A stretch of 64,000 nt of DNA from Pontiella desulfatans (GTDB lineage Bacteria; Verrucomicrobiota; Kiritimatiellia; Kiritimatiellales; Pontiellaceae): assembly GCF_900890425.1 (NCBI RefSeq), contig NZ_CAAHFG010000001.1, positions 1,178,001-1,242,000 of the forward strand, written 5' to 3'. The position numbers and the translations under genes are program-made. Below are positions 44,305-63,870 of the stretch, piece after piece (the first letter of the stretch is position 1; each line of letters opens with the position of its first letter). The notes under the pieces were generated by a model. The model ran no database searches and was not told where the DNA came from. It was given only the letters and a program-made list of their open reading frames with translations.

Positions 44305-44305
44305 G

Positions 44306-44899: not shown

Positions 44900-44909
44900 A
44901 AGATCCTCC

Positions 44910-45613: not shown

Positions 45614-45643
45614 GGTTCTGTCTCCTTGTGGGTTGTTTATGAA

Positions 45644-45677: not shown

Positions 45678-45697
45678 GGGCCTGAGAAGGAGGGCGG

Positions 45698-46293: not shown

Positions 46294-46301
46294 GGTGCCT
46301 C

Positions 46302-46574: not shown

Positions 46575-46960
46575 GATTCGTGCTCTCCTTCAGGTTGCAG
46601 TTGTCCGAGCATCTCCACGACACCCGGCTCGACGAACGCCACCGGGCCGGTAAGCGCGATGTTGAAGATCCGCGCGGCGGCCGCCGTGCGGATGTGGGCG
46701 ACACGCCCGGTTCGGTATGCGTTCTCCGGCCTGATGGTACCGCCGGTGAATGTGCTCTTCTGCGGATCGCACTCGACGAGCGCAATATACCCTTTCTTCC
46801 ACAGCGCGGCGTGTTCCGGGCACAGGTCCCAGCCGGTGACCGTATGACGGTCGAGGCTGTTTCTTAACCGCTTGTCGAGCAGGATGGTGCCTGTATCGAA
46901 CGCCTGTCCGCAGACCGGGCAGACCTTTTGTTCCATACCGACATGGCTTTTTGTGCTCAT
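46571..46960 (-). CDS. plasmid-type zinc-binding small protein
   Basis: A 129-aa protein starting at MSTKSHVG (ATG 46,960). CPVCGQAFDTGTILLDKRL and GWDLCPEHAALW give a four-ligand Cys/His zinc site. PENAYRTGRVAHIRTAAAARI follows. I recognise this as a conserved accessory protein of proteobacterial plasmids and integrative elements, often misannotated as ATPase; its function is unknown. It overlaps genes on both sides. Confidence 0.75.
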   Translation of the reverse strand: MSTKSHVGMEQKVCPVCGQAFDTGTILLDKRLRNSLDRHTVTGWDLCPEHAALWKKGYIALVECDPQKSTFTGGTIRPENAYRTGRVAHIRTAAAARIFNIALTGPVAFVEPGVVEMLGQLQPEGEHES

Positions 46961-46962
46961 GA

Positions 46963-47614
46963 TCAATCTCCTGTTGTTGGTTGTAAGGTTTTGATGGTGG
47001 TGGGTACGAGGACTTCGGTCTCGACCATTTCATAGTCGCGACAGAAGCCGACGAAGATGTCTACGACATCGTCGCACAGCCGGTCGAACGAGCAGACCAG
47101 CCGCACGCGCTTGCGCAGGTCGCTCATGTACCATTGACTGAAATCCTCGCCCTGGTCCACGGACCTGCCGGGCCATGTGATGATTTTCGGTTCCGGTTCG
47201 GGCAGCACCCGCAGCAGGCCGATGCAGCCGTCTGTTGTGCAGGGCGTGTCCGCCTTATGCCACGTCGACCGTCCGCACAGATCGCAGCGGGCGGTTCTGG
47301 CATTCTTGCGGTTCAGTCCGCCCTGGTAGAGCACCAGGTATCCGCCGCTGCGGCCGTTGAAGCCGGCCTGCCATGTCCAGTTATATTCCTGCGCCCACTC
47401 CTGCAGCCGGGTGTCAATGGCCCACCGCACTTCGCTGCAATCGAGCATCTCCCACGCCTTGTCCATCACCTCCGCCGGGAAACCCAGCGTGTGGATCTTG
47501 AGGTTGTTTGCGTAGGAGGTGCTTGTTCATCGTGCTGTAGCGGCTGTGTGTCCGCAGGAACGCGATCATCGCCGCGCGGCTGCGCAGGTCGACGTGTTGT
47601 GTGAATCGTTTCAT
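46963..47614 (-). pseudogene. frameshifted plasmid-type protein
   Basis: The N-terminus (MKRFTQHVDLRSRAAMIAFL, from ATG 47,614) and the rest (STSYANNLKIHTLGFPAEVM on to VPTTIKTLQPTTGD) lie in two frames that meet near 47,527. Proteins of this plasmid-type family carry TMN-STSYANN in one frame, so one base is gained or lost at ATGAACAAGCACC. The second part alone (from ATG 47,469) could still be made. It keeps a zinc-binding CDLCGRSTWHKADTPC stretch and the GFNGRSGGYLVLYQGG motif. Mutation, sequencing error or programmed shift cannot be told apart here. Confidence 0.68.
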
Positions 47615-47642
47615 GATTTTGCTCCTTGTGTGATTTTCAGGT

Positions 47643-48173
47643 TCAGCTGTGCATATCCAACAGCACGGCGTATCGCATTCCTGACCGCCGCTCGTCATCC
47701 ATATGGGTGACGCCGAACTCGGTGTACTCCCACGGGCGGAACCGCGTACCGAATACGCAGAGCGGACCTTTCCGGTCCATTGCGCCCTTGCCGGACAGCC
47801 CGGCCGAATAAACGGCATGCAGCCGGTCGACGAACTCCTTCAGTGCGTACAGGCGGCCGCAGACTTCCGCCGGAGTCCCTTCCGTAATTCCGTCGTAATT
47901 GCCGGCGGCCAGCATGGTGATCGCGTGCTTTACTTCCGGGTCCGGGTTCAACCGGACGGCGTCCATCAATTCCCTGTTCAGCACTTCGAGCGTGAAGGGG
48001 CCGGTGTATCGCGAATCCGCTTCACCGGCATACCATGCGCCGTTCGCGTCAACGGCCCCGGCGATCGAGCGCCAGTTGTTTTCATCGCCCCATCCATCGA
48101 TGTAGGCGTCCACTTCCGCCATGGCCTCTTCTGCCGAGTCGGCCCGGGCCACAATAATGTGCAGATTATGCAT
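47643..48173 (-). CDS. hypothetical protein of the element
   Basis: A 176-aa protein with no family I recognise. The start (MHNLHIIVARADSAEEAMAEVDAYI) looks like an alpha/beta domain of plasmid accessory proteins. The rest is mixed, with a GPLCVFGTRFRPWEY segment. It starts one base after the upstream stop. Confidence 0.62.
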   Translation of the reverse strand: MHNLHIIVARADSAEEAMAEVDAYIDGWGDENNWRSIAGAVDANGAWYAGEADSRYTGPFTLEVLNRELMDAVRLNPDPEVKHAITMLAAGNYDGITEGTPAEVCGRLYALKEFVDRLHAVYSAGLSGKGAMDRKGPLCVFGTRFRPWEYTEFGVTHMDDERRSGMRYAVLLDMHS

Positions 48174-48374
48174 TCAGGCCTCCTTGCGTTTATCGGGTGT
48201 TCCTTCGTTGATGTTGTCGCGCCGGGTGAAGGTGTAGACCTCCTCCCACGACGCACCGCACTCCGTGCAGATCATTTCCTGCACGGCCTCCATACCGCAG
48301 ATCTCCACGATGCCGCCCTCGATGTGAGGGCTGCCGCAGACCGGGCACTTGCTGTTATCGGGTTGGTCGCTCAT
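48174..48374 (-). CDS. small zinc-ribbon protein
   Basis: A 66-aa protein starting at MSDQPDNSK (ATG 48,374), overlapping the upstream stop by 4 bases. Two CxxC pairs (CPVCGSPHIEGG and CTECGASWEEVYTF) make a zinc ribbon. A nucleic-acid or protein contact role is possible but not shown. Confidence 0.65.
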   Translation of the reverse strand: MSDQPDNSKCPVCGSPHIEGGIVEICGMEAVQEMICTECGASWEEVYTFTRRDNINEGTPDKRKEA

Positions 48375-48862
48375 AGCGCACCCGCCTTTTCCGCCTTTGC
48401 CACCGGTGCGCCCCACCGGGCGCGCTCATACCCGGGCAGGGCGCGGACCGCCTTGTCCTTCAAGGCCTGAAGAAAGGCGTGGGCCTCGCTGGCTTCCCAA
48501 CCGGGATGCTCGCAGCTCTGGTATTCCAGACAGTTGCAGGACTTGAGCACCTGGACCGGCTCGAACGCAACGGTGGCCTGCTGGAAGGCAACGTCCGCCT
48601 CTGTTATGTCGTCCTCGACATAGCGGTCGCCCGGCAGTTCTTCAACCGGATCGCTGTAGCGGTGGGCCACGGAGATCATGTTTTCCTTCCAGAGCATGTT
48701 GGCGGCTTCTACGGCTGCAGTTAATTCTCCCTCTCGGATGCAGTCTCGGCTACTTTCCCCGTGATACCATTCCAGTCCGCCGCCATACGGCTTACCGGTT
48801 CCGGCCATGGCCATGGCGGCCAGGTAAGCTACGTGTTCTTTTGCTACAATGTATGCGCTCAT
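48371..48862 (-). CDS. hypothetical protein of the element
   Basis: A 163-aa protein behind AGGAG. It is helical, with a CNCLEYQSCEHPGWEASEAH stretch holding three cysteines and histidine. No family recognised. It is the first gene of the small-protein chain after the ArdC-like gene, from which it is separated by a hairpin near 48,890-48,920. Confidence 0.6.
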   Translation of the reverse strand: MSAYIVAKEHVAYLAAMAMAGTGKPYGGGLEWYHGESSRDCIREGELTAAVEAANMLWKENMISVAHRYSDPVEELPGDRYVEDDITEADVAFQQATVAFEPVQVLKSCNCLEYQSCEHPGWEASEAHAFLQALKDKAVRALPGYERARWGAPVAKAEKAGAL

Positions 48863-48928
48863 GTTGAATCTCCTGTTTGTTGAATGAAGAGGGAGGGAGC
48901 ACCGTTCGCCGGCACTCCCGTAGGGATG

Positions 48929-49819
48929 TTACGCGGCCTGCTGCAGCTCAGCCTGCTGTTCAGCCGCTCTGGCGTCCATGATATAATCGAACGCCTTCTG
49001 CGCTTCGCTGCCGGCCTTGATGAGCATGGAAGGGTCTGACTTCAGCTTCTCCAACCAGCCCCGCAGATAGGCTGCTGAGTTGGTTTCGGTACATAGCAAT
49101 ATTCCGCAGTACCCGCACAGAAACGCCGACCCCATCTCGGCCACCAGCTCCTCCTGCGAGTAGGCATGCGATCCGAAGCCCGTGGGCTCCATGATAGCCT
49201 TTCGCCCTACTCTTGATTCATGGCCGACCGAGTGACAAATTTCATGAAACAGGGCTCCATAAAATTCCGCACCCGACGTGAACCACTCCGGGGAAGGCAT
49301 CGATACACAGTCCATTGACGGGCTATACGATGCCAGCGTCCGGCCATAACCGATGTCGGGTTTGTTGGGCATGTTGGCCACCAACTCTTCAGCGATCTCC
49401 AGCGGCGTATGTTCCCGCGTAGGAATTTCCACTACGGGAACTTTACTCTCCGGAAGGCCCTCACATTGCTCGACATTGAACACCCGGTAATACCGGAGCA
49501 TTGCGTATCCTTTCTGCTTCGGGTCGTCCTCTTTTGCATCCACGATCCGCCAAAACACGACGGGGCAGGATTTCTCGCCCTTCCGGACTTTGCCTCCCAT
49601 CGCCGTGACCTGTTTGAAACTCAGGAAATAAGGGGATGCGTAGCCGAGCATGTGCAGCAGGAATATATTTACCCCTCTGTAGTTATTTCCGGTTACCAGA
49701 TTTCGAGGCATCAGGCTCACCGAGGTCCACGGCTTCTTCCAGGGCAGGGTATTCGTTGCTTCTATCCGCTCGATAAGTCGGGCGGTGATCATTTTATTAA
49801 TCTTCTGATACGCACTCAT
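48929..49819 (-). CDS. ArdC-like antirestriction protein with zinc-metallopeptidase domain
   Basis: A 296-aa protein starting at MSAYQKIN (ATG 49,819, AAGGAG upstream). The N-terminal domain (1-130: PWKKPWTSVSLMPRNLVTG, YRGVNIFLL) is the ssDNA-binding ArdC_N/DUF1738 fold. The C-terminal domain is a zincin with HEICHSVGH and a downstream EELVAEMGSAFLC motif supplying the third ligand. On plasmids, ArdC shields incoming single-stranded DNA from host restriction. Family confident; activity inferred. Confidence 0.88.
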   Translation of the reverse strand: MSAYQKINKMITARLIERIEATNTLPWKKPWTSVSLMPRNLVTGNNYRGVNIFLLHMLGYASPYFLSFKQVTAMGGKVRKGEKSCPVVFWRIVDAKEDDPKQKGYAMLRYYRVFNVEQCEGLPESKVPVVEIPTREHTPLEIAEELVANMPNKPDIGYGRTLASYSPSMDCVSMPSPEWFTSGAEFYGALFHEICHSVGHESRVGRKAIMEPTGFGSHAYSQEELVAEMGSAFLCGYCGILLCTETNSAAYLRGWLEKLKSDPSMLIKAGSEAQKAFDYIMDARAAEQQAELQQAA

Positions 49820-49849
49820 GGGTTGTCTCCTTGGGTTTGGTGTGGGCAC

Positions 49850-49877
49850 AAAAAGACCACCCGGGATTGGGTGGCCT
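49850..49877 (-). terminator. intrinsic terminator
   Basis: Minus strand: AGGCCACCC and GGGTGGTCT pair around AATCCC, then TTTTTG. It ends the clamp-like gene. Confidence 0.75.
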
Positions 49878-49897
49878 CGCTGTCATCTAGTTTGCTG

Positions 49898-50503
49898 CTA
49901 CGCCGCGATCCTGTCTTCCTTCTCCTTCATCGCCTGCATTACACGCTCGGTCTGGATGGCTTCAATCTGCTGGATCCAGTAGTGATCGAGCATCATCGGC
50001 ATGACCACCAGCGTCGTCGTCTCATTCGTTACGAGCACGGGGGACCTTTTCGGATCGATCTTCTGGATATGGAGAGTCACGGCCTCGTCGTCACCGAGCT
50101 CCACCAGCTTCGGATCAACCCAGCACCCGAGTCCGGCGGTGGCCCACAGCACAAACTGCTTGCCGACGCCCTCCAGAGTATAGACGCCAGCGCCGGAGCT
50201 GATGGGAATGACCTGCCGATAACTCGGGAAGATAAGCTCCTCCTGACACTGGGTCAGAAAGACCGTCTTCGCTGTACACGCCTTGATGTCGTAAATACCC
50301 GGTCCGGCTTCGAGGCTGAAGCGGTCACTGCGCATCCGTTTGCCGTCCGTGGCGATGATGGTGATGCCGTCTTCATTATTCTCCACCAGCACCTTGGTGA
50401 TGACGTGACGGGTGGAATCCTTCGAGGCACAGGCGAGCACCGACTTCATGCGGGCAAAGTCGGCGCGGTTATATTTATCGTTATTAAGTTCTATCGTATT
50501 CAT
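49898..50503 (-). CDS. short sliding-clamp (DnaN)-like protein
   Basis: A 201-aa protein from ATG 50,503 (AAGGAG upstream). Residues 10-60 resemble a beta-clamp domain (ARMKSVLACASKDSTRHVIT, DGITIIATDGKRMR), and TTLVVMPMML copies the VVMPM end of bacterial DnaN. A helical tail follows. Bacterial clamps have three domains and about 370 aa, so this is a reduced version. It may help element replication with the primase and helicase genes, or bind clamp partners. Assignment rests on these two motifs. Confidence 0.6.
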   Translation of the reverse strand: MNTIELNNDKYNRADFARMKSVLACASKDSTRHVITKVLVENNEDGITIIATDGKRMRSDRFSLEAGPGIYDIKACTAKTVFLTQCQEELIFPSYRQVIPISSGAGVYTLEGVGKQFVLWATAGLGCWVDPKLVELGDDEAVTLHIQKIDPKRSPVLVTNETTTLVVMPMMLDHYWIQQIEAIQTERVMQAMKEKEDRIAA

Positions 50504-50534
50504 CGTTGCTTCTCCTTGGGGTTTAAACTGCGGA

Positions 50535-50562
50535 AAGCCGCCTCCCGGATTGGAGGCGGCCT
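50535..50562 (-). terminator. hairpin, possible terminator
   Basis: Minus strand: GGCCGCCTCC and GGAGGCGGCT pair around AATCCG; the following T run is short (TTT). Confidence 0.5.
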
Positions 50563-50612
50563 CTTCTTCGCGCTTCCTGCGAGCGCCTGGCGGTGCATAG
50601 GCCTGATGTGTT

Positions 50613-50745
50613 CGCAACTGTCATAACGGTCACGATTTCGCGTTCGGTATCTTGCGCCAGTTGGAACTGTTTGGATCATGTTTGCAACTGCACCAACTGT
50701 CGGGAGACGGGCATGCCGCACTTCCGCCAGTTGGAACAGTTGATG
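50613..50745. repeat. cluster of CAACTG/CAGTTG boxes
   Basis: Six exact CAACTG or CAGTTG hexamers (50,615; 50,658; 50,685; 50,694; 50,728; 50,737) stand in 130 bases. They include two direct copies of CGCCAGTTGGAAC 70 bp apart. No gene explains it; an operator or iteron-like site is possible. Confidence 0.5.
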
Positions 50746-50749
50746 TATA

Positions 50750-50965
50750 TCAGGGACCTGCACCGGCCAGCTGCCGGTCATACTCCTGCTCCGCATCAAC
50801 CTTTTTCCACTGCCAGCCATATACGGCGTTCACGATGCTGATCTGGGTGTCCACATCCGGTCCGTCCTCGTAGACGTAGGCCCGGGTGATGCGGTCCACC
50901 AACTCCGTTTCCTTGCCTCCGCCAACATACATGCCGTCTGCGGTCTTAATGACTACTTTGCTCAT
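50750..50965 (-). CDS. small hypothetical protein
   Basis: A 71-aa protein behind AGGAGG. DGMYVGGGKETELVDRITRA and ISIVNAVYGWQWKKVDAEQE are the notable parts; no family recognised. It lies 12 bases after the RadC gene and is presumably co-transcribed. Confidence 0.6.
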   Translation of the reverse strand: MSKVVIKTADGMYVGGGKETELVDRITRAYVYEDGPDVDTQISIVNAVYGWQWKKVDAEQEYDRQLAGAGP

Positions 50966-50977
50966 TCGACTTCCTCC

Positions 50978-51409
50978 TTATCCGAAATTGCACAACCCAG
51001 CTTCTCGTAGACTCAAGGCTGTATTTCCGATAATTACGTGATCTAGAATTTTAATGCCCATGATCTCGCCAGCTGCGATGAGCTGTCTTGTAATTTTCAG
51101 GTCTTCGCAAGAAGGAGAAGGACTTCCGCTGGGGTGGTTATGCGCCAGTATGGTGTACGATGCTCCGCTTTGAATGAGCGGCCGGAACACCTCACGAGGA
51201 TGGACCAGCGCCGATGATACGGTGCCCAATGAAACCAGATGTTTCTCGATCACCCGGTTCTTAGCATTCAACGCAATAACCACAAACGCTTCTTGTGCAG
51301 CCGACTTCAGCTCACTCAAATACGCTTCAACATGTTCCGGTGACGTCAGCAAAGTTCCGTCGTAAGCAGCCTCTTTTACCGCCAGATCTGTATGTAATTG
51401 AAGTACCAT
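50978..51409 (-). CDS. radC: RadC-like JAB-domain protein
   Basis: A 143-aa protein that is only the JAB/MPN metal domain of RadC, lacking the N-terminal helix-hairpin-helix of the chromosomal form. The JAMM ligands are seen as ILAHNHPSGSPSPSCED, with VIIGN toward the end. I prefer ATG 51,409 (GGAGAA eight bases upstream) to ATG 51,415. Short RadC proteins are frequent on plasmids and genomic islands next to antirestriction genes. The biochemical role is unsettled. Confidence 0.9.
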   Translation of the reverse strand: MVLQLHTDLAVKEAAYDGTLLTSPEHVEAYLSELKSAAQEAFVVIALNAKNRVIEKHLVSLGTVSSALVHPREVFRPLIQSGASYTILAHNHPSGSPSPSCEDLKITRQLIAAGEIMGIKILDHVIIGNTALSLREAGLCNFG

Positions 51410-51441
51410 TTTCATTTCTCCATTTTGTTGTGGTTTAAACT

Positions 51442-51473
51442 AAAAACCCGCTGTGCCGGGATGGCGCGACGGG
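51442..51473 (-). terminator. hairpin, possible terminator
   Basis: Imperfect stem on the minus strand between CCCGTCGCGCC and GGCACAGCGGG, followed by TTTTTAG. It lies after the nuclease gene. Confidence 0.45.
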
Positions 51474-51500
51474 GTGGGGGTGGTTGATGCAGGGTGTGGA

Positions 51501-52331
51501 TCAGGCGGCCTGGGCGATGGAATATTCCCCGTTGCACCAGCTCTTACACGCCCCGGCAAAGGGGCAGTCATTGCATGCGAACGAATCCAGACTCGGGTAA
51601 AACAACTCCTGCTCCACGATCTGATCCGCCTTCGCCGCCAGCGCACCCAACAGGTTCCAGTCCTCCCGGGTACGGGAGGTGGAGTGGGATTCGAAAATCG
51701 GGGTCTTGTTTTTTACCGCTATATCGAATCTCACCACTGGGTTGGTATTGTGAATGAGGTCATAGGCATACGAGTACGCCAGGGCTTGTGCCGATTTGTC
51801 AGCCTTTGCCTTTGGCCAACGGGTGGCGCTGGTTTTCCAATCCACAACGATCGGAGCGCCAGCCTTTTCAACGACAAGGTCAAACTCGCCAATCAGCGGC
51901 TTGGAAAGAAAACGGCCCTCGTGACTGATCGGCACGCAGAACGCCTCCGACACCTCCAGCACTTTTTCTGATGGGTCGATATTGTTCCATGCCACCTTGA
52001 TGAGTCCGCGACCCTGTTCCTCAACCCCGGCGGCATCGAGCTTGCCATACTTGATTGGCGGGTCCTCCTTCGAGGCTGCTCGCCAGTCCTGCGTATACAG
52101 CTCCAATGCCTCGTCCAGCGTCAGTGGCATCTCGAGCTTCCGGGCTAGGAACACTTGATCGAGGGTACGATGGTATACCGACCCCGCCACTAGGTTCACG
52201 CTGGTGTGGGACGGGGGGAGTTTCTCGATCTTCTGAAACCACCAATTCAGGCTGCAAATGTTGAGTAACGAGTTCAGTGAGCTGAAGCTCCAATGTGGCC
52301 GCTTGCGCAGTTCGTTTAATGTCATCTTCAT
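51501..52331 (-). CDS. PD-(D/E)XK nuclease, Cas4/RecB-like
   Basis: A 276-aa protein of the RecB/Cas4 nuclease fold (PDDEXK_1). The core is visible as Glu in GSVYHRTLDQ, GEFDLVVEK (first Asp) and IVVDWKTSATRW (Asp-x-Lys), followed by QALAYSYAYD. A C-terminal CNDCPFAGACKSWC cluster matches the iron-sulfur or zinc cysteines of this family. No cas genes are near. The likely role is DNA end processing or recombination for the element. The start has GGAGAAAG upstream. Confidence 0.87.
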   Translation of the reverse strand: MKMTLNELRKRPHWSFSSLNSLLNICSLNWWFQKIEKLPPSHTSVNLVAGSVYHRTLDQVFLARKLEMPLTLDEALELYTQDWRAASKEDPPIKYGKLDAAGVEEQGRGLIKVAWNNIDPSEKVLEVSEAFCVPISHEGRFLSKPLIGEFDLVVEKAGAPIVVDWKTSATRWPKAKADKSAQALAYSYAYDLIHNTNPVVRFDIAVKNKTPIFESHSTSRTREDWNLLGALAAKADQIVEQELFYPSLDSFACNDCPFAGACKSWCNGEYSIAQAA

Positions 52332-52350
52332 GTACTTTCTCCGTTAAATG

Positions 52351-52383
52351 AAAAAGCCCCGCCGCTCATATGAGCGACGGGGC
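52351..52383 (-). terminator. intrinsic terminator
   Basis: Minus strand: GCCCCGTCGCTCATATGAGC pairs with the following GGCGGGGC around ATAT, then TTTTTC. It ends the gene at 52,406. Confidence 0.82.
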
Positions 52384-52405
52384 CGGGTGTTTGGGGTGGG
52401 GGAAG

Positions 52406-52816
52406 TCAGGCTGCCCGCTGATATTCATCAATCAGGCGGCTGCAATTTTTGCGGTCGAGATCATAGATCGAGTCCACGCCGAACCGCGTCTTAACATCGA
52501 CGTTCAGCTGCATGAGCGTCACGTTTCTGGCTTTCGCGAGGTCGAGCAGATAGCCCACCTGGCGGTTACTGGCCTTGCCCTCTGCCGGGGCAGGTAGGTG
52601 CTGTGGTTCGGGTTGCCCTGCTGATGCGGTATTCTTTGCCAGTTCTGCTTCCACGGAGTCACGGACCAGGCGGAAGGTGTTGGCAATCTTCTCTTTCAAC
52701 TCGGACTCCGTGAGCCCCGCCGGGAGCTCCAACTCCACGGATGCCATGAAGCTTTTGGAGCTAAATTCGACCTCAGCCGGCACCTTTTTTTGAAACGAAG
52801 CGTTTAGACGTAGCAC
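52406..52816 (-). CDS. hypothetical protein, element replication region
   Basis: A 136-aa protein with GTG start 52,816 chosen because AGGAGG lies seven bases upstream. The N-terminal part (FMASVELELPAGLTESELK) is followed by a proline-rich linker, and the C-terminal part SNRQVGYLLDLAKARNVTL looks like the small helical domain found in phage and plasmid accessory DNA proteins. No enzyme motif. It could assist the adjacent nuclease. Confidence 0.62.
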   Translation of the reverse strand: MLRLNASFQKKVPAEVEFSSKSFMASVELELPAGLTESELKEKIANTFRLVRDSVEAELAKNTASAGQPEPQHLPAPAEGKASNRQVGYLLDLAKARNVTLMQLNVDVKTRFGVDSIYDLDRKNCSRLIDEYQRAA

Positions 52817-53301
52817 TGGAAACCTCCTTATGGTTTTGGGTGAATAAAGAAACGCCGCGGAAGCAAGTGCCGGGGCGAGTTGGATGAAGAATAGGCTGAC
52901 CTTTCCTTCAATTATTAATAACACGCTGAGGCACGTTTTTCACCCATTTCACTCTTCTGCCGTTGTTAACAGCTGTATAGGGCCCATTGGCACCGCCGCG
53001 TATGAAGGTGGTGCCCTACATGGCGACGGAGGTGTTTCACTGATTACAAAGTCGGCTCGGGGTATCGGTTCATTTGTTCATGTCGCATAAGCAAAACTAC
53101 GCATTTGGGACAAAAGGTTCTTCTTTTGCTATGCCGCGTAAGTGATGCCTTTATTATCAACGGTTGCGTGGTTCTGAATTCAGCGTGCTGAGCGGTAGTA
53201 GCGATATTTGGGGCTAAATAAATTTGGCATATGCCGACTGGATTTGCGTAACTGCCATTTTATCAGGACTATACATATGCAAAATCGCAAGTAGGAGGTC
53301 G
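52817..53301. other. 485-base non-coding stretch
   Basis: No credible gene. It holds the ribosome site and presumed promoter of the 52,406 gene at its left. An imperfect inverted repeat (GCATAAGCAAAA at 53,085 and TTTTGCTATGC at 53,124) lies in the middle. The rest is AT-richer than its neighbours and shows nothing I can name. Confidence 0.5.
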
Positions 53302-54411
53302 TTAATCTATAAGATTTCCGGCGGCATCCCGTTTTAAACACCCTGGATTATCGGGGTCGGCGCCTATAGGCAACTCAAACTCCCTTTTGACGCGCCATGT
53401 AGCAGGCGGGGCTCGGAATCGGTTAAACGCGAATAGCGTATCACGCACGATATCGCCGTCAGGATGTAGAACACCCGGCAGCTGAGCCATGTGCGTATTG
53501 AGCCAGTTGATGAAGAACGGCGCCAGCTGCATGATATCAAGCCTCCATAGAAGCCGGTAATAGCTATGGTATTTCGGCAGATCGAATGTGCTGCCGTCTT
53601 TGCTGAAGGGCAGTCCTAGCAGCTGAGCCTGGTTGCAGGATATGCGTTTAGAAAACTTAACAATCCCATTGATGCTCGTACTCCCGGAAATCAATGCAAG
53701 CAGCGTGATCGCCAGTAAAGTATCCAGAGGATAGTGACTATTGTTTTCGCGCGGATCATGCACTTCTTTGAAGGCGGCTGAAAATGAGGACAACAGCTCA
53801 TCCTTAATGGGAAGCAAGCCATCGACGTATGGTGAGGTTCCGCCGGTATAGGCTTTGTCGAGGTGCTTGGCCGTGATGATGGCCCTCGCATCGGGAACCA
53901 GTTCCTTGAGCCAATGGCTGGCCGCCGCCCGGGGATTCTTGTCCGTTGTCCGTGTCCAGCCGGTTTCTTTAAAGTAGCCGGCGAATCCGCTGCTTGCCTC
54001 AAGATGCGTGTCCGCTAGCAGCGGAGCATATCCAAAATAGTCGACCCAGTCAGGTTGCAGAGATAGTAGCGCCGCATTGAGCGCGATGCTTCCGTAGTTG
54101 GGTTGGTCTGGCGAATGATGCATCGGCTGGAAACCGAGGCATTCAATCACGAGAGGAAGTCGTTCTGCCTGTTGTGAAATATGCCAGCCCAAAAAGCGGT
54201 TTCTCGGATACGAGAAGTGCCTACCTCTTCGCCAGAGGAATGCCCCCAGCCAGAAGTGTTTTTGGTAGAGAACGATCTGACCTAGATCATAGCCGTCGAC
54301 CTGCGACTCAAGGCAATCATACCACGGACCCATGTATGCCTTTGCGGTTTCAGCGAATTTGTCGCTGGTTGCGGCGTACACGTAGATTTCATTCGGATTG
54401 ATGTTCGTCAT
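53302..54411 (-). CDS. DUF4338 (DruA-like) plus transposase-associated domain, no DDE domain
   Basis: A 369-aa protein from ATG 54,411 (AAGGAGAA upstream). Residues 20-200 follow the DUF4338/DruA pattern: FLGWHISQQAERLPLVIE, NYGSIALNAALLSLQPDW, YFGYAPLLADTH and the GYFKETGWTRT loop. Residues 235-330 match the domain that precedes the catalytic part of ISAs1/H-repeat transposases (NSHYPLDTLLAITLLALISG). The DDE catalytic domain that should follow is absent; the protein ends after a short tail. A domesticated transposase derivative or defence protein is possible. First recognised by pattern only. Confidence 0.65.
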   Translation of the reverse strand: MTNINPNEIYVYAATSDKFAETAKAYMGPWYDCLESQVDGYDLGQIVLYQKHFWLGAFLWRRGRHFSYPRNRFLGWHISQQAERLPLVIECLGFQPMHHSPDQPNYGSIALNAALLSLQPDWVDYFGYAPLLADTHLEASSGFAGYFKETGWTRTTDKNPRAAASHWLKELVPDARAIITAKHLDKAYTGGTSPYVDGLLPIKDELLSSFSAAFKEVHDPRENNSHYPLDTLLAITLLALISGSTSINGIVKFSKRISCNQAQLLGLPFSKDGSTFDLPKYHSYYRLLWRLDIMQLAPFFINWLNTHMAQLPGVLHPDGDIVRDTLFAFNRFRAPPATWRVKREFELPIGADPDNPGCLKRDAAGNLID

Positions 54412-54520
54412 TTTCGTTCTCCTTCGAGTGGTGTGCAGATAACTTCGGTAACTTTTTGAATCCGCTTCATTTCGTTGTCCTTGTTTGGTTGTGTGAATCC
54501 TGATCCGGCTGCCTAAGGGA

Positions 54521-55102
54521 TTAAGAGTCTGTGTCATGCAAACTCTTTACCCATCGCGTTACGTGGTCGTTTCCCCCCAGCGCCTTGCTCCAGCCCATTT
54601 TCTCGAGGTACGGGGCTTCTGAGTCGGATGTTTTTAGATAAGCTTCGGTGGCCACAGGATGGACTCCAAAGCATCCAAGCCAGTGTTCCGGTAGCATCCG
54701 CATGACAGCGAATAGTACGATGGGGCCCCAGCTCAAACCAGCGACATGGGAAGGCTTTGGCAAGATCATCTGAATCTGGGCAATCTTGTCGAGGTCTTTG
54801 AGTTCTACGCTGGTCCACTCGTTCCAATGGGCAAATAATTTGTTTGGAATACCCCAGTCCACTGTGCCAATCCATTGATTCTGGAAGAGGACCACCTGCC
54901 GCATCTCTTTGTCTTGCGCCGTTTCGATGGAGAGCCTGTAGTGCTTGTGCCCAATCGCGTTATCCAATAGCGCGTAATTTTCACTGCGAGCCGCCAGCAC
55001 TTCTAAATCATCGATATAGATTCGCTCATTCGTTCTGTCAACGGTTCGGGCGAGTTGCTTTGCCTCAGCGCATGTCAGAATTTGGTACTTACGCTTACTC
55101 AT
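54521..55102 (-). CDS. DUF4338-like protein
   Basis: A 193-aa protein (AAGGAGAA before the ATG). Residues 50-190 resemble the DUF4338 part of its downstream neighbour: RQVVLFQNQWIGTVDWG parallels GQIVLYQKHFWLGAFLW, and LPEHWLGCFGVHPVATEAYL parallels LQPDWVDYFGYAPLLADTHL. MGWSKALGG stands at the place of the GWTRT loop. It lacks the transposase-associated domain. Likely a second half or partner of the same system. Confidence 0.6.
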   Translation of the reverse strand: MSKRKYQILTCAEAKQLARTVDRTNERIYIDDLEVLAARSENYALLDNAIGHKHYRLSIETAQDKEMRQVVLFQNQWIGTVDWGIPNKLFAHWNEWTSVELKDLDKIAQIQMILPKPSHVAGLSWGPIVLFAVMRMLPEHWLGCFGVHPVATEAYLKTSDSEAPYLEKMGWSKALGGNDHVTRWVKSLHDTDS

Positions 55103-55279
55103 CGTATATTTCTCCTTATCTTCATTCGATATGTATCATCTGTCATTATGTATCTTCGTTTCCTTCGTGTGTTTCTCTTAATACGATACGGCCTCGCATG
55201 AGACTCGTTCGTTCCGCCGGGGGAAGCGATGACGCCGAATGCAACGGCGCCATCACCCCGCCTTTGGGGCCGTTCCGAT

Positions 55280-56416
55280 TTATCTCTGCGCCGCCGCTAC
55301 GTTAGGTTCCGGCTGGAATATGAGTCTAAAGCCCTCGAGCACCTTGGATACAAATGGTTTGTCGGGTGCCATATGTTCGGGCAGCTCGTCCTTGTGTATC
55401 TTTAGCCATTTCTCCAGAGTCTCGGTGACTACATCCATATCGAAGAACTGATGCAACTCAGTGTAGGTCGCCGGGTCGTTATGCCAGAGATCGCCACCAG
55501 TGGCCGAATTGGGCAGCCCCAGTGCATAGGCCTGAAACGCGTTGAGACTCTGGCCGAACTCCACGACCGCCTGGATGTTTCGCGCTCCGAGCAGCGCCGC
55601 CAAGAACGAGATGGTCAATACGGCTGGCAATCTCGCCCGAAGCTCACTCTTCATTGAATCCGCCCCCTGATTACTTAGGGCATCCCTCAGAGTGATTACG
55701 AGGTGGCCGGGGACGGGAAGATGCTCCATTTTCCGATAGTATGAATGGTGGAAGCCACGAAAGGATGACGTATCGCAGGTTACTTCGGTGCTCGGTCCGT
55801 TGTCATTAGAGCGCAGGCTGATGCGTAGGTCTCCTGAGATTTCTGCCACCCCGTCCACCATGATGTTTCCACTGATATAAGCGTTTCCGTGAATGGTCGC
55901 GCAATCCGACACCTGCGTGTGGTCCCATACTTTGGCGTTTTCAAAGATCCTCGCAAACCCGCTGATTTCCGCATGGTCGGAGACGCGCGCCCTCCCAAAG
56001 ACTCGTGCCGCTCCATTGATTTTTGCGTCGCCGTAGACCGATGCATCCCCGTATACCTTAGCCGCACCGCTAATTTCCACATTGCCGTAGATCTGGGCAT
56101 TTTCATAGACTCGCGTTTTGCCGGAAATCTTCGCGCTAGCTGACACCTTGGCGCGGTCGCAGACCGTCGCATCGCCCTCCACTCGGGCATTCCCCAGAAC
56201 CCTTGCTCGGCCGTAAACTGCGGCGTTGTCCGCCACCCAGGCTCTTCCCCGCGGGGAGAGATTGCGCGTTTCCTCGAGCCAACCGCCTCGATCCCCCGAC
56301 TGAACATCGCCGAAATCAGAGGTCGCCTGTACTCGGTGAAGAGTGACGCCATCGATTTCTTTGGTCTGACTGGTCAGCGTGAATTTCTCGTTTTTTATTT
56401 TCTTTGTCTTTTTCAT
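55280..56416 (-). CDS. hexapeptide beta-helix plus transposase-associated domain
   Basis: A 378-aa protein. Residues 10-60 match the start of a prophage family of polymer-forming hexapeptide proteins (EIDGVTLHRVQATSDFGDVQSG). Residues 60-200 are about twenty left-handed beta-helix turns (VYGDASVYGDAKINGAARVF). Residues 245-345 resemble the ISAs1/H-repeat associated domain of the gene at 53,302 (RLPAVLTISFLAALLGARNI). No catalytic DDE residues. This combination is unusual. ATG 56,416 has AGGAA upstream. Confidence 0.65.
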   Translation of the reverse strand: MKKTKKIKNEKFTLTSQTKEIDGVTLHRVQATSDFGDVQSGDRGGWLEETRNLSPRGRAWVADNAAVYGRARVLGNARVEGDATVCDRAKVSASAKISGKTRVYENAQIYGNVEISGAAKVYGDASVYGDAKINGAARVFGRARVSDHAEISGFARIFENAKVWDHTQVSDCATIHGNAYISGNIMVDGVAEISGDLRISLRSNDNGPSTEVTCDTSSFRGFHHSYYRKMEHLPVPGHLVITLRDALSNQGADSMKSELRARLPAVLTISFLAALLGARNIQAVVEFGQSLNAFQAYALGLPNSATGGDLWHNDPATYTELHQFFDMDVVTETLEKWLKIHKDELPEHMAPDKPFVSKVLEGFRLIFQPEPNVAAAQR

Positions 56417-56452
56417 GTTATTCCTGCTCTTCACGGGGATGTCCCCGTTTTC

Positions 56453-56629
56453 TTATTTGTCTTCAATGAGGCATGACGCCTCGTTGTTTGCTCCATAGGG
56501 GAGGGCTATGTCGGCACCACGCCCTTTCTCGTCCATCGCGAGGACCGTGTCCGGCGCGTCGTCGACTTTACATTCTGAGACTGGATCTCGGCGGGAGACC
56601 TGAATCTGGTACCTGGAATCATTGTTCAT
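56453..56629 (-). CDS. small hypothetical protein
   Basis: A 58-aa protein whose ATG (56,629) lies inside the end of the primase-like gene, so it would be made by coupled translation. Sequence SRYQIQVSRRDPVSECKVDD has no recognised family. It is short enough to be doubtful. Confidence 0.4.
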   Translation of the reverse strand: MNNDSRYQIQVSRRDPVSECKVDDAPDTVLAMDEKGRGADIALPYGANNEASCLIEDK

Positions 56630-57626
56630 GGCGTGGTTGACCAGTGAGATTCTGTCGGTGCGCACTGTGTGAGTGTTGTTTGCCCCCGATGATTGCTCCC
56701 CGTACCGGATGTGGGTTCAGGTATAGCAGCGTTTGCCAGCGACCCGTCTCCTCTCTGCAGTGCCCAGGCAAACGGCTAAGTCGCGACTCATTTTTGCAGT
56801 TGGGGTCAACACCCATCGGGATCAGCCGCCGGGCATACAATTCAGTTTCGATCTTCTCTGTCCACACCTTACTATCGGTGATGCCATCGGTCCTTATCCA
56901 CCCGTGGATCGACTTCCCGCCGCTGTCGATCAGTGCGGCCACGGGGAGGGGCACCACTGCCCAGAATGCAAGTTGATCTTCCCTGCTGAGATTGTCGAAC
57001 TCCACCACGGTGTAGCGAAACGCCTTGACCGCCGCGTCGCACCGGAACGACAGCCCGCCGCCTTTTTTTTCGCCCAGGTTGCCTGTGAGGGGGTTGGGAA
57101 TGATGTGGGGAAGGCCGGATGTCCCATGCCCGTGAATATAGTCTATCCAGTCTTTCGCAGGTCTGAGCCCGGTATCGTACCGTCCACCAAGAAAAAGGAT
57201 GTCTTCGGGGTTGAACAGGACTTGTAGGATGAAATGGGCATCGTACTGTGGCACTTCAAGCAGTTGTACCGGCGAGACTGCCCTGAGATCCTGCTCGCTG
57301 ATCCCTTTGCCTTGTTTCAGGAGGTGGGGCAGGTAGGCGGATTTGATCACGGGGCGGGGTTTGTGGGGAACGGCAGGCCGTCCACCGGTGGAGGTGATTC
57401 CGGTAAGATCCTGCCTTGCGCGCCGTATAGCCGCATCGATCTCGTTGTCCGGAACCGGGCGGTCGCCGTCGGGGATTGAGTTGCGGATATCGGTGAACAT
57501 CCGTTCGTCTGTCAGTTCCGCCATGACTCCGTGGTTAGCGACACCAAGTAGAGCAGGGTGACATCCTCCGCCACCGGGTAACGGGATAGATTGGAGGGCC
57601 TTATTGTACTTTGTGAGTTGCTTCAT
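56619..57626 (-). CDS. primase-like replication protein
   Basis: A 335-aa protein from ATG 57,626 (AGGAGA upstream). Key motifs are those of plasmid/phage archaeo-eukaryotic-type primases: VVEFDNLSREDQLAFWAVVP, then DSGGKSIHGWIRTDG (the conserved S-G-G-K-x-x-H-x-W block), and DPNCKNESRLSRLPGHCRE. It sits directly before the helicase gene (read leftward), which completes a primase-helicase pair for element replication. The polymerase activity itself is inferred. Confidence 0.8.
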   Translation of the reverse strand: MKQLTKYNKALQSIPLPGGGGCHPALLGVANHGVMAELTDERMFTDIRNSIPDGDRPVPDNEIDAAIRRARQDLTGITSTGGRPAVPHKPRPVIKSAYLPHLLKQGKGISEQDLRAVSPVQLLEVPQYDAHFILQVLFNPEDILFLGGRYDTGLRPAKDWIDYIHGHGTSGLPHIIPNPLTGNLGEKKGGGLSFRCDAAVKAFRYTVVEFDNLSREDQLAFWAVVPLPVAALIDSGGKSIHGWIRTDGITDSKVWTEKIETELYARRLIPMGVDPNCKNESRLSRLPGHCREETGRWQTLLYLNPHPVRGAIIGGKQHSHSAHRQNLTGQPRHEQ

Positions 57627-57768
57627 ATTTCTGTCTCCTAAATACACTAGGGATGGTTGTAGTTGTGGAGGATGTGGAGGGGTCTGTTCCTGTTTCTGGG
57701 AGAATAGTTCCTTCGGGGTGTTCGAGTGTGCTCATATCTTTTCTACTACCGTTTTTCTATGAATTGAG
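57627..57768. other. gap between helicase and primase-like genes
   Basis: 142 bases carrying the ribosome site of the primase-like gene. No other signal recognised. Confidence 0.35.
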
Positions 57769-59102
57769 TTAGAGGGTTCCACCCCCTCCACTAGAGTGGC
57801 TGATAGGGGGAGAAGGAGGGTCAAAAAGCAGACTTCCCTTCGTGACTATCCGCCACCTGTTTTCGGTCGCACTCCGCTGTTTAATTACCTGCGGGTTGGG
57901 CAGATTTGACAGGCGTGCCAGATACGTCCCTGCGGCTCCGGCGAAGAACAGTAGTTTGTCAGCTTGTCGCCCTGCTGATTGTCGAAGCTCCTTTTCCAGA
58001 TTGGCGGCGGTTCCCGCATAGGGGAGTTTGACGTACGCTTCTACAAGCGACAGGAATTCCGCCTCATTGCTTGTGGTGTGCAGGGACGTGATCAAATCCG
58101 GGTTGTGGTAATGAGCAATGCCAAACCGGTCCGAGGTCAGAGCGTCCGGTATCTTATACGAGTTGAGCAGCCAGTATAAAAATGCCGGTATTTCTGAGAG
58201 GAGAGTTTCCCAAAAAGCTTTTTTATCTGTCCGAGTTGTGGCCGGCATCGGCAACTCACGTTTGAAGGCTCGCAGTATGATCAGTTTGTCCTCAACTCCT
58301 GCATCGAGCGGTGGCAAGACATGCAGGTCCTCCGGCTCATCATTGAGAGTGATGCTTAATCTCCAAAAGGGCTTCAACATTAACGCATCCCTTTTTTTTG
58401 CATGAAACCGCTGGTCCTGATTAACCGTGATTTGCTTGATAAAGCTCCCCAGTTTGCGGCGTGATCTGTAATCCGTTGAGGGGGCTTCGTCTTCGATCAT
58501 CAAATGTTCCGCAGCGAATAGCTCGGAGTTGAAATCCGTTCCGCCGATCATATATTGGTAAGGTTTTGCGGATCGTCCTCCAAAGATTATGGTGAATAGA
58601 TTCTGCAGCAGGCTCTTGCCGCAACCAACAGGTCCTGCCATGACTAGGGCCTGCCCAGGCATCAAGCTGCCGCTCCGCAGGGCTGCTACAGCCCATTGGA
58701 GCCAGCCGAAGAAATGAAGCAGTTGAGCTGGTTGGTCGGGATCATCCAATATGGCTTTGATGGTTTTCAGCAGGACGTCAAAGCCCCCCTTTACGGGTTC
58801 TAAAAGCTGAGGGCTAAGTGTCACGAGCACGCGGTTCCCGTTCTGTTCCGTGATGCCTTCATTATAGCCGGCGAGAGGTCCAGCATAAGAGACTGCGCAG
58901 TTATCTTGAACCCTCAGAATTTCGCTATCCGCCGCGCTTAGCAACAATCCGTCAGATGGCTTGGCCGAGATGCCGGCCTGGCGCAGTCTGCGTTTGAGTT
59001 GAGATTCAGAATGGTGAATCCATTGACTGCCGTTCCATACCAAGTACTCTTTGCGAGTAATGTCGTAATAGGCGGTAAGGTTCGTTGTGTGGCCCGCTCG
59101 CG
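57769..59102 (-). pseudogene. primase-helicase (DUF5906-like), C-terminal part split off by IS
   Basis: This is the larger part of an SF3-type/DUF5906 replicative helicase: Walker A AGPVGCGKSLLQNLF, Walker B-type HLMIEDEAPS, then FWRLSITLNDEPEDLHVLPP (sensor region) and a C-terminal winged-helix-like tail. The first codons of the open frame, from GTG 59,124, belong to the insertion sequence. The true N-terminus is at 60,492-60,606. Joining the two with one copy of the CTCGCG duplication gives one 482-aa frame without a stop. A shortened product from GTG 59,124 could still be made. Confidence 0.82.
59097..59102. repeat. target-site duplication, left copy
   Basis: CTCGCG, repeated exactly at 60,486-60,491 on the other side of the insertion sequence. 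Confidence 0.85.
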
Positions 59103-60485
59103 TTGCCTCAAAAATAAATGACACCGTAGAGGTGCGGATGAGGAGTCGTTTGACTGCATTAATGGGTACCCTCTAATTCGGGGGTTGTCAAGGTGGGGAG
59201 GCAGTCGGGGAACCCGGGTTCCCCGACTGCGGCGGACTCGCCGGTTTTCTTCATTTTTTCGATCTTGCGACGTCGGCGCTGGATGCGATTGCCCAGCTCG
59301 AAAGGGTCGAGCGTTTCGTATTCGCGTTGCAGAGCAGCCTCCTGTTGTTCGCCAAGGATGCCGCTGACCTTCAGGCGGTCAAAGGGCGTGGCGGGGGCAT
59401 CGTATTTCTTTTTGTACCGGCTTTTGACGCGAACCTTGCTTTTTAGCTTGAACGAGGGTTTGAAGAAGTTGTTGAGCCGTTCCCAGTCGCGGTAGAGTGC
59501 GTTGAGCTCTCTGATCATGGCCGGGTTGTCGAGCCGGTCGTAGCCGAGCAACTCGCGCACGTGCGTCCAGTTCTTTTGTTCGACATGGGCGTTGTCGTTC
59601 TTGTGGTACGGTCTGCTGCGTGTAAAACAGACGGGCTGTTTGCGTTGCAGGAAGTAGCGCGTGAGATGGTGGTTGAGGAACTCGCTGCCGTTGTCGCAGT
59701 CGAAGCCCAGGATGGCGAAGGGCAGCTTGTTTTCCACGTCGTGGGTTTGGTGCATCACGCCTTCAGCGCCTTTGTTCCAGACCGCGCGGGTTACCGTCCA
59801 GGTGCTTATGATGTCCGTATAGGTGATCGACCAGATGAAGTCCCCGCTCATCGATCCGCCACAGTGGGCTACTGTGTCGGCTTCGAGATAGCCGGGCCGG
59901 TCGATGTCCTCGGTGGAGGTGCGGATTGGGATCTGATTCTTGAGCAGCGAGCCGGGCTTGGTACCGGTATTGCGCCTTCGCTGGTACTGCGCTTTGAAGG
60001 GTTTGAGCACCCGGTCGATGCTTGCCGGGCTGATTCTCAGTAGCTTTTCACGGCATTCGGTCGATAGCGGTTCGTAATGTTTTTCATAGTGCTTCAGCCA
60101 ATGTGGCATAGCAGGCTTGAGGCGCTTCCCGCACAGTTGTCCAGAACGAAGCCACAGAGTTTTGAGGGTCTTGCGCAATTCAGCAGAGTCGTACTCGCCT
60201 TTGCGGCCGCGTTTGCCCCTGGAGGGCGTAAACGAGTCGTTGAGCAGCTTGGTGGCATGCTTGCGATCATAGCCGCATACCGCGCATACTTCATCGAGCA
60301 ACCGGGTCTTGTAGGCCTTTTCCGCGCGCCTATAGCGGCGTTTTTGTACCGCGATGTATTCCATTCTGGTTTCGCAACTCATCTCTTTCATCCTCCCTGT
60401 ATACAGGGTGTGATTTTTTGTGAGTCAACGAATCCTTTCCGCCCGCATCCTATCGGATGCTTCGGTGTCATTTAATTTGAGGCAA
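59103..60485 (-). mobile_element. insertion sequence, 1,383 bp
   Basis: The ends are inverted repeats of 24 bases (20 identical): each starts TTGCC and ends TAAATGACACCG when read inward, at 59,103-59,126 and 60,462-60,485. It carries one transposase gene on the minus strand and is flanked by a perfect 6-bp target duplication (CTCGCG). The clean ends suggest a rather recent insertion. It interrupts the primase-helicase gene in the element. Confidence 0.9.
59159..60382 (-). CDS. DDE (rve-type) transposase
   Basis: A 407-aa transposase. The start is ATG 60,382, nine bases after AGGGAGG. Residues 10-50 form a helix-turn-helix (KTRLLDEVCAVCGYDRKHAT). The retroviral-integrase-like catalytic core follows, with Asp in YLEADTVAHCGGS, Asp in FDCDNGSEFLNHH and Glu in NDNAHVEQKNWTHVR. 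A basic C-terminal tail ends it. It resembles IS481/ISNCY-type enzymes; the exact IS family should be read from ISfinder. It moves the 1,383-bp element around it. Confidence 0.9.
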   Translation of the reverse strand: MSCETRMEYIAVQKRRYRRAEKAYKTRLLDEVCAVCGYDRKHATKLLNDSFTPSRGKRGRKGEYDSAELRKTLKTLWLRSGQLCGKRLKPAMPHWLKHYEKHYEPLSTECREKLLRISPASIDRVLKPFKAQYQRRRNTGTKPGSLLKNQIPIRTSTEDIDRPGYLEADTVAHCGGSMSGDFIWSITYTDIISTWTVTRAVWNKGAEGVMHQTHDVENKLPFAILGFDCDNGSEFLNHHLTRYFLQRKQPVCFTRSRPYHKNDNAHVEQKNWTHVRELLGYDRLDNPAMIRELNALYRDWERLNNFFKPSFKLKSKVRVKSRYKKKYDAPATPFDRLKVSGILGEQQEAALQREYETLDPFELGNRIQRRRRKIEKMKKTGESAAVGEPGFPDCLPTLTTPELEGTH

Positions 60486-60491
60486 CTCGCG
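60486..60491. repeat. target-site duplication, right copy
   Basis: CTCGCG, exact copy of 59,097-59,102. Confidence 0.85.
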
Positions 60492-60606
60492 CTTCTTCAG
60501 CTGCAACATCGAACGCTTGCAGGGTAGCATCGATCATGATATGTTCTTCTTGTGTTCGAGTATGGGATTCCGCGCCTGCCAGCGCGGGGTCTTTTTTATC
60601 AGTCAT
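60486..60606 (-). pseudogene. primase-helicase, N-terminal part
   Basis: From ATG 60,606 the frame reads MTDKKDPALAGAESHTRTQ to AAEEAR and then enters the insertion sequence. Without the IS and one duplication copy it continues in frame into AGHTTNLTAYYD of the larger part at 59,102. The ATG overlaps the stop of the helix-turn-helix gene by 8 bases, so the helicase was coupled to it. Too short for the usual gene lists, but needed to understand the locus. Confidence 0.8.
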
Positions 60607-60895
60607 TTTGTACCCCCTCGGCGATACCTTGAGAGGCGATGCGAAGTATCTCTTCTTCGTCGTATCTGATCCGCCGTGCAGAAAATCTGATCGGGTGGAT
60701 CTGACCGCGCTTGACCATTCGCCTGACGGTCAATTCACAACAGTCCAAAATTGCTGAACTCGCTTTGAGTGATATTAGGTTCCGACGCCGTGTTTTTCCG
60801 GCCAAGAGGGCCAGAAACTCTTTCGTCATGTGCGGATCGATCTCCGGATCGTTGTCCATCGCCAGCTGGACGAGCTGTCTTGTCGTGTTTTTCAT
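60599..60895 (-). CDS. helix-turn-helix (excisionase/MerR-like) protein
   Basis: A 98-aa protein from ATG 60,895 (GGAGAA upstream). Residues 45-90 form an excisionase-type winged helix: LKASSAILDCCELTVRRMVKR, then GQIHPIRFSARRIRYDEEEI, the order of HTH_17 domains. It may direct excision with the integrase or regulate the replication genes it overlaps. It lies between the integrase unit and the helicase. Confidence 0.78.
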   Translation of the reverse strand: MKNTTRQLVQLAMDNDPEIDPHMTKEFLALLAGKTRRRNLISLKASSAILDCCELTVRRMVKRGQIHPIRFSARRIRYDEEEILRIASQGIAEGVQND

Positions 60896-61078
60896 CTGAT
60901 TTCTCCGTTTATTGCTTAACGGATCTGATGAAATCATAACTAGCCACTTACTGTCCCCCCAGTGAGGGGCCTGCAAATTCTGATTATTAGGGATTTATAC
61001 GGAAGATTAAGGACAGCAATGAATTGCGACAGATGTTATTTTCGACATATTTATTTTGATTAGATGTTGGTATGGAAA
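60896..61078. other. gap upstream of the HTH gene
   Basis: 183 AT-rich bases. It holds the HTH gene's ribosome site and probably its promoter; no clear -35/-10 pair is seen. Confidence 0.35.
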
Positions 61079-61118
61079 ATGATTCGTTTATGATTCGTTT
61101 ATGATTCGTTTATGATTC
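61079..61118. repeat. 11-bp tandem iterons
   Basis: ATGATTCGTTT is repeated three times exactly and followed by a fourth partial copy. The array overlaps the end of the gene at 61,110. Unit length is about one helical turn, so bound proteins would line up on one face. Possible binding site for the nearby HTH protein, integrase or replication initiator. Confidence 0.75.
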
Positions 61119-62288
61119 AGCGCGCTCTATCGCAACCTTAAGTTGTTGCTCAAATTGTCCAGAGGAGAGATTGCTTAGACGTAGAAAAATGTCGGCTATT
61201 TCGTAGCAGTGGGACTGTTTGGTATATGCCAGTTTGATGCCATTTATTTTGCATAAGCCGGAGAATTCAGCCAGTGCATTGATCTGGTTGTTGTGGCGTT
61301 TGGAGGACAAGTCTTTTATCATCATATCAAAGTGCTTCGCAGTATTTTCGTAGAAATCAGTATTAGCCATAAGAAGGTCAACAAGGCATAACTCGGATAT
61401 TGGGTTATTGGCGTTTTTCCCGTATGCGCTCTTCTCATATAGTTGAAAATTGTTGACTAGATCCTCTTGGAGAGCACGTGCAATAAGGCTTTTCGTGAGC
61501 TCGGGTAAAGCGTGGAGTTGTCGGAGTATGTCGCGGCATTTCTTCAGGCTTTCGATAAAATCCTCATCAGCAAGCCATGTGGTTTCATCTTCACCCTTGG
61601 GGGTAAGACTATTTTGGTCCAGGTGAAGTTTGACTGTTATTTTGTCTAGTGATCGAAGAAAAGCCGCGGCTTTTTTAGGGCAGGAATTCCTCTGGCTGAA
61701 GTGGCAAAATTTCAGCAGCCCTTTGGCATTAAATGGCGCGCGTTTTTCTTGGAATTCCTTTCGTGTGCAAACCTGTAGATGCCGGCTAATGACGCGTTCG
61801 GCAGTTTCAATGTCGATAACCAATCTTTCATAAACTACGTCACGTACTGCATCACGGATCGTTTCATCGTCTGCATCTTTCCACGAATGCAGTAGATCCA
61901 TGGATGTGCAAAGACAGGCCAACAAGTTAACAGTATCATCGTCTTGGTTATCATCTGATCGATCATATTTGTTCAAGCACGATAAAAAGGAATGCATGGT
62001 ATTCTCTGCATCACGTGTGATATTTTGAAATTTTTCTCTGAGGCGCTCGTCCAGTTGACGCGCTTTGAATTGCAGTTCTTCTTGAGGGAGGGGCTCTGCG
62101 ACTAGAGCTTGTTTGAAAAACTCTATGTCCTCCGGTGAGAGGATGCCGTCCCGATGAAAGGAGGATAGCGTGATTGCCACGTTGGATAGATAGAATAACC
62201 TCGGATCAATATAGGTTGCTACTCGTCTGCCATACTCCTCGAATGCAATCTTGCCTTGGTACGCCTTGGATTGCTTTTTCTTGCTCAC
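61110..62288 (-). CDS. unknown protein coupled to the integrase
   Basis: A 392-aa, largely helical cytoplasmic protein with GTG start inside the integrase stop (GTGA overlap, 62,285-62,288). Seen in the sequence: a charged region at 100-120 (NKYDRSDDNQDDD), a CTRKEFQEKRAPF stretch and scattered single cysteines without metal-site spacing. No signal peptide or membrane segment. I do not recognise a family. Its place right after the integrase is where elements often carry cargo or excision functions. Confidence 0.7.
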   Translation of the reverse strand: MSKKKQSKAYQGKIAFEEYGRRVATYIDPRLFYLSNVAITLSSFHRDGILSPEDIEFFKQALVAEPLPQEELQFKARQLDERLREKFQNITRDAENTMHSFLSCLNKYDRSDDNQDDDTVNLLACLCTSMDLLHSWKDADDETIRDAVRDVVYERLVIDIETAERVISRHLQVCTRKEFQEKRAPFNAKGLLKFCHFSQRNSCPKKAAAFLRSLDKITVKLHLDQNSLTPKGEDETTWLADEDFIESLKKCRDILRQLHALPELTKSLIARALQEDLVNNFQLYEKSAYGKNANNPISELCLVDLLMANTDFYENTAKHFDMMIKDLSSKRHNNQINALAEFSGLCKINGIKLAYTKQSHCYEIADIFLRLSNLSSGQFEQQLKVAIERAES

Positions 62289-63742: not shown

Positions 63743-63870
63743 GCCTGTGCGTACCTGTTCATTTGCGTTGCAAACGGTACGATTAGAGGTCATGTAAATC
63801 AACTGAAATACATCATAAATGCATCATATAATTAGAATAACCTTCTATAGTTGGTTGAAGTTATGTATTT
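63743..63870. other. integrase promoter region / att arm
   Basis: 128 AT-rich bases between the integrase and the tRNA fragment. It should contain the integrase promoter and arm sites; no repeats stand out. Confidence 0.35.

Follow-up and report, generated by a model that had tools for sequence, protein, structure and literature searches.

Which function is served by three genes that are related to parts of transposases, possess no nuclease domain and stand side by side in an integrated element of Pontiella desulfatans? The initial annotation of the window (the whole analysed stretch of 64,000 nucleotides) considered them either an undescribed defence or element-competition system or a domesticated transposase family.

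The genes, hereafter A, B and C, are intact co-oriented open reading frames in the region 53302-56416, in the order C, B, A:

53302 to 54411, minus strand: gene A, a degenerate DruA-like (GNAT/Mom-like) domain followed by a DDE_Tnp_1_assoc domain, with no DDE domain
53410 to 53814, minus strand: the all-helical associated domain of A (AF2 pLDDT 91.5)
54521 to 55102, minus strand: gene B, a degenerate DruA-like domain alone, 193 aa
55280 to 56434, minus strand: gene C, an N-terminal left-handed beta-helix (YdcK/phage hexapeptide type) and a C-terminal DDE_Tnp_1_assoc domain, 384 aa

The longest frame of A spans 53302-54537 (411 aa), and a ribosome-binding site (AAGGAG) preceding codon 43 points to a likely start at 54411, giving a product of 369 aa, near the 364 aa of A', its counterpart in a second element of the same genome. 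C has an alternative ATG at 56416, the end coordinate originally given to the cassette, and matches phrog_5070 (1.4e-67) as well as PF18836 (2e-7, Pfam). A scan of promoters and terminators gave nothing above chance.

In Pfam searches, the associated domain (PF13808) was detected in A (1.4e-12) and A' (2.5e-14), fell below threshold in C (0.047) and was missing from B, while a DDE domain (PF01609) was absent from A, B and C. Both A and C stop just after the first DDE strand, and A' has the same end point as A. Although hmmscan returned no PF14236/DUF4338 match in A, A' or B, hhalign against a profile of 26 DruA-ISAs1 transposases, which included no cassette member, aligned A/A' over 310 columns (E 3.7e-40), B with the DruA part (E 1.1e-6) and the C-terminus of C with the associated domain (E 2.3e-15). 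PF14236 is matched by 13 of the 16 proteins in the initial family alignment, and B retrieves the A protein of Pontiella sulfatireligans in blastp (1e-9). These alignments show A and B to be genuinely related to DruA. The initial description thus holds: the three genes lie side by side where they had been placed, two of them end in an ISAs1-associated domain (A by the anticipated PF13808 match, C by hhalign), and none has a DDE nuclease. The DUF4338 assignment of A and B stands through alignment to PF14236-positive transposases, and not as a direct hmmscan match.

The cassette is carried, within a host genome of 8.66 Mb, by an integrated element with the order tyrosine recombinase, helicase and primase, a variable slot, u52406, PD-(D/E)XK exonuclease, RadC, a clamp-like protein and ArdC:

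62285 to 63802, minus strand: tyrosine recombinase of the element (PF00589, 5.8e-19)
57769 to 59124, minus strand: SF3-like helicase (DUF5906) of the replication module (PF19263, 2.5e-6)
56619 to 57647, minus strand: primase-like protein upstream of the slot (phrog_2597, 8e-16)
52406 to 52924, minus strand: u52406, a conserved element-core gene downstream of the slot, 72% identical in the second element (locus L036) and also present in L152-L156 and L158
51501 to 52331, minus strand: PD-(D/E)XK exonuclease of the element core (PF12705, 1e-20)
50978 to 51415, minus strand: RadC of the element core (PF04002, 1.5e-40)
48929 to 49849, minus strand: ArdC antirestriction protein of the element core (PF08401/PF18818)

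The cassette had been placed between replication and nuclease genes; these prove to be the primase-helicase genes on one side and u52406, the exonuclease and RadC on the other. The helicase gene is separated from the element's upstream genes by an insertion sequence with an rve-type integrase domain (59159-60391). Elements of this family (44300-63802 of the window; L036, L038, L152-L156 and L158) have in common the core of u52406, exonuclease, RadC, clamp-like protein and ArdC, and their replication and cargo modules are exchangeable. Several copies can occupy one genome, and the exonuclease gene is found at seven places in this one. Beside the second element, three consecutive tyrosine recombinase genes (L036, 17239-19900) resemble a recombinase-in-trio element.

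Eight core copies with enough flanking sequence (the window, L036, L038 and L152-L156) could be compared. Cassette genes fill the slot in three of them, as C-B-A in the window, C'-A' in L036 and B with a truncated A in P. sulfatireligans, and unrelated genes do so in the other five, as also in L158 from a further genome. Since slot contents differ in this manner, the trio is cargo in a variable slot and not a fixed unit. The linkage that the initial annotation proposed to check is accordingly partial: members recur together, but not strictly as three. The same comparison bears on the main alternative, according to which the cassette is an accessory to the element's own replication or excision and has no role against transposons. 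Its position on the same strand as the primase-helicase genes and the u52406-exonuclease-RadC core, and between them, would suit such a role, but the five core-sharing elements that do without it speak against this, and we regard the explanation as possible, though doubtful.

With regard to origin, the relatives found in the same class are proteins of the ISAs1 type that combine DruA, associated and DDE domains. Among the 346 genomes of the class that were searched, the DDE-less clade of A occurs in Pontiella only, and C with its solenoid fusion in the two elements of this genome only, as C and C'. A strict-pattern scan of 84,980 species genomes, a set from which the window's own genome is possibly missing, retrieved P. 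sulfatireligans only, and the closest relative with the cassette among the genomes covered is P. sulfatireligans F21. Querying IMG/VR with A, B and C yielded no relatives of A or B, querying phage and plasmid records with A yielded none either, and C recovered only hexapeptide proteins from IMG/VR and phage records; a DNA search of plasmids with the cassette gave no match.

Trees unite A with A' on the DruA domain (91/95) and on the associated domain (99/91), and the latter also joins A/A' with C/C' (97/95), but the long branches on which A, B and C are placed call for caution. Although only 42% identical, A and A' both lack the conserved TKG..R..FY..RPK.LW block of DruA; as this deletion and the end point are common to them, loss of the DDE nuclease most likely predates the divergence of A from A' (and of C from C'). 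In comparison with the P. sulfatireligans copies, dN/dS amounts to 0.23 for A (Nei-Gojobori, residues 1-274; Fisher p 2e-10) and to 0.28 for B, whose copy is 94% identical (Nei-Gojobori; p 0.002); synonymous change is saturated in the A/A' and C/C' pairs. Thus, these reading frames of A and B are not due to chance, and both genes are under purifying selection.

P. sulfatireligans lacks C, and its A has lost most of the associated domain, ending at a junction with a different exonuclease gene; this copy of A may be decaying. Such a truncation, together with the fact that full-length relatives outside the clade are transposases, is what would be expected if the whole cassette consisted of decaying transposase remnants without function. 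That explanation appears unlikely, however, given that both dN/dS values are significantly below 1, that intact frames persist in two elements despite the distance between their A proteins, that the fusion in C is common to both, that no inverted repeats flank the cassette at its borders, and that the terminal repeat of a single distant DruA-ISAs1 element has no match in the window. Within the genomes searched, the data rather support domesticated transposase fragments that form a small family confined to Pontiella. The second proposal of the initial annotation is thereby borne out: the DDE domain that full-length relatives possess is missing from the cassette clade, and selection keeps the cassette. 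Homologues followed by a DDE domain, which it had regarded as the mark of truncated transposases, are indeed the rule outside the clade, whereas the clade itself, A' included, is devoid of it.

The transposases themselves displayed a further property. In 24 of the 25 DruA-ISAs1 transposases with a detectable 3' half of the DDE domain, that half lies in another frame (16 at -1, 8 at +1), the split falling past the second catalytic D, where a homopolymer run occurs. Such a run (C5-10T4-6, T5-7C3-5 or A6-9) is present in the overlap of approximately 21 of the 24 (frame-split loci: L023, L037, L039, L041, L043-L046, L048, L053, L086, L088, L090, L092, L095, L097-L099, L101, L103 and L104). This pattern points to transcriptional slippage or programmed frameshifting within the DDE domain, and the predicted unshifted product would comprise DruA, the associated domain and half a DDE domain, a composition close to that of A. 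One genome (G378) contains two 1.91-kb copies of such an element (L169 and L183, 1350-3261), bounded by inverted terminal repeats CAAGGTAACTTyATTTAG, with the site CCCCCCTTTT and the end of the DDE domain in the -1 frame; as the copies are 99.9% identical over 1912 nt, the element seems to have been active recently. A limited set of publications consulted included no paper on DruA-ISAs1 transposases or their frameshift. The analysis brings to light an insertion-sequence family with a conserved, putatively programmed shift of frame in its catalytic domain.

What the DruA-like domain might do was approached through its fold. The AF2 model of A (pLDDT 80) places a GNAT domain at approximately residues 45-225, for which the best solved match is Mom of phage Mu (8bv8_A; Z 11.9, rmsd 4.2, 166 aligned residues), ahead of general acetyltransferases (Z 10.1 and below); a profile search of PDB sequences gave no match. 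DUF4338 is also termed a GNAT domain in PMC10853773. When 12 Mom proteins were combined into a profile, it aligned to the DruA domains of the transposases (E 2.4e-6), with N..S and D motifs of the two in register, and the Mom-type S and D are invariant or nearly so in the DruA domains of 28 DruA-ISAs1 transposases. DruA/DUF4338 may accordingly be a nucleic-acid-modifying GNAT. The associated domain of A is modelled as a helical bundle, and its structure search gave no convincing solved match (best Z 5.5, globin-like helices).

Positions that show no or almost no variation in the same 28 transposases were followed into the cassette. The structural ones (R112, W118, R126, G169, W194, G285 and P321) are kept in A and A'. 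Of the Mom-type ones, H73 is changed in all cassette proteins except B and R135 in all; N147 persists only in the two A copies of the window and P. sulfatireligans, S150 only in the A of the window, and D180 only in A'. The A of the window therefore alters H73, R135 and D180, A' alters H, R135, N and S, and B alters R135, N, S and D, so that each cassette protein is without at least three of the conserved H, R, N, S and D residues. At the positions of the Mom S/D pair (S124/D149 of PDB 8bv8, equated with S114/D139 of AF083977 by an assumed offset of +10), A has S/E, its P. sulfatireligans copy C/K, A' V/D and B P/K. Net charge has also shifted, from +7 ± 5 in the DruA domains of transposases to between -2 and -11 in the cassette, and from +8 ± 3 in their associated domains to +1 (A), +4 (A'), +5 (C') and -5 (C). 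With the Mom-type residues broken and less positive charge, the cassette DruA domains are probably pseudo-enzymes whose contact with DNA is weakened, and enzymatic or Druantia-like roles are unlikely.

These results weigh on the proposal that A and B form a Mom-like pair of DNA-modifying antirestriction enzymes guarding the element alongside ArdC. The GNAT fold with Mom as its closest solved match, the register of the Mom and transposase motifs and the presence of ArdC in the same element all favour it, but the residues aligned with the Mom S/D pair are altered in the cassette, R135 is altered throughout and the Mom profile gives no alignment with A/A'; we therefore consider it very improbable. 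If DruA is a Mom-like GNAT with a likely active site intact in transposases and broken in the cassette, this contrast makes DNA modification by the DruA proteins of Druantia and of transposases testable.

Some Druantia types include DruA, and the DruE-type helicase of these systems carries an MZB/DUF1998 domain. The DruA1 model of PADLOC matches a transposase relative (L042) at 2e-4. Even though DruA belongs to some Druantia types and the cassette sits on a mobile element, a Druantia-like anti-phage system has hardly any credibility left, and the undescribed defence system first envisaged is not supported, as PADLOC gave no match for A, B, C, A' or C', no MZB domain was found anywhere in the genome and no open reading frame of DruE size in the element (so that no locus combines such a helicase with DruA or DruH), most DruA-type catalytic residues are lost, and the neighbouring genes belong to replication and recombination and are not recognisable as defence genes.

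The explanation that we favour, with modest confidence, is that A, B and C are element cargo made from non-catalytic parts of DruA-ISAs1 transposases, acting through protein contacts and likeliest as poison subunits. The cassette would have been built from two such parts, the Mom-like GNAT 'DruA' domain and the helical ISAs1-associated domain. One half of A (DruA) is common with B and the other (associated domain) with C, in which it follows the solenoid; as its two halves recur in this way, A could bridge B and C in a non-catalytic complex held by like-with-like contacts, an idea drawn from domain architecture and three loci. In P. sulfatireligans, C is absent and A is cut in its associated half, a single case that fits a pairing of A with C. 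By mixing with a DruA-ISAs1 transposase, the proteins would act as poison subunits and block transposition, by analogy with other transposons. This specific role against DruA-ISAs1 transposition is tentative, the benefit of an inhibitor being in doubt as only one such transposase was seen in this genome. It is rather unlikely that the bridged complex, with B on the DruA half of A and C on its associated half, constitutes the element's immunity against DruA-ISAs1 transposons; if true, one mobile element would have made its immunity against another from the rival's own transposase. Element competition may be one reading of such a dominant-negative role.

Compared with known systems, A has the same domains in the same order as the DruA and associated parts of DruA-ISAs1 transposases (PF14236, PF13808 and PF01609; NCBIfam NF033564, ISAs1), whereas the DDE domain and terminal repeats are missing from A, B and C, A and A' lack a conserved loop of DruA, and the cassette has less basic charge and retains only a minority of the catalytic residues. 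The DruA domain has its fold in common with Mom of phage Mu, a GNAT DNA modification enzyme, and motif register in its transposase version, whereas the catalytic S/D pair is not kept in the cassette. The N-terminal 200 residues of C resemble YdcK and phage hexapeptide-repeat proteins (phrog_5070), but are fused here to a transposase-associated domain. With DruA of Druantia, the DUF4338/DruA domain is common at the level of the transposase relatives, whereas A and B match no DruA model and no Druantia partner genes were found. A further parallel is with truncated-transposase inhibitors such as InsA of IS1 and Inh of IS50, in which a non-catalytic transposase part is likewise kept as a separate protein. 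Those are the transposon's own products, whereas the cassette is the cargo of another element and its inhibitor role is putative. As an example of transposase domestication, the cassette offers a non-catalytic protein whose two halves recur in two neighbours and which travels as mobile-element cargo.
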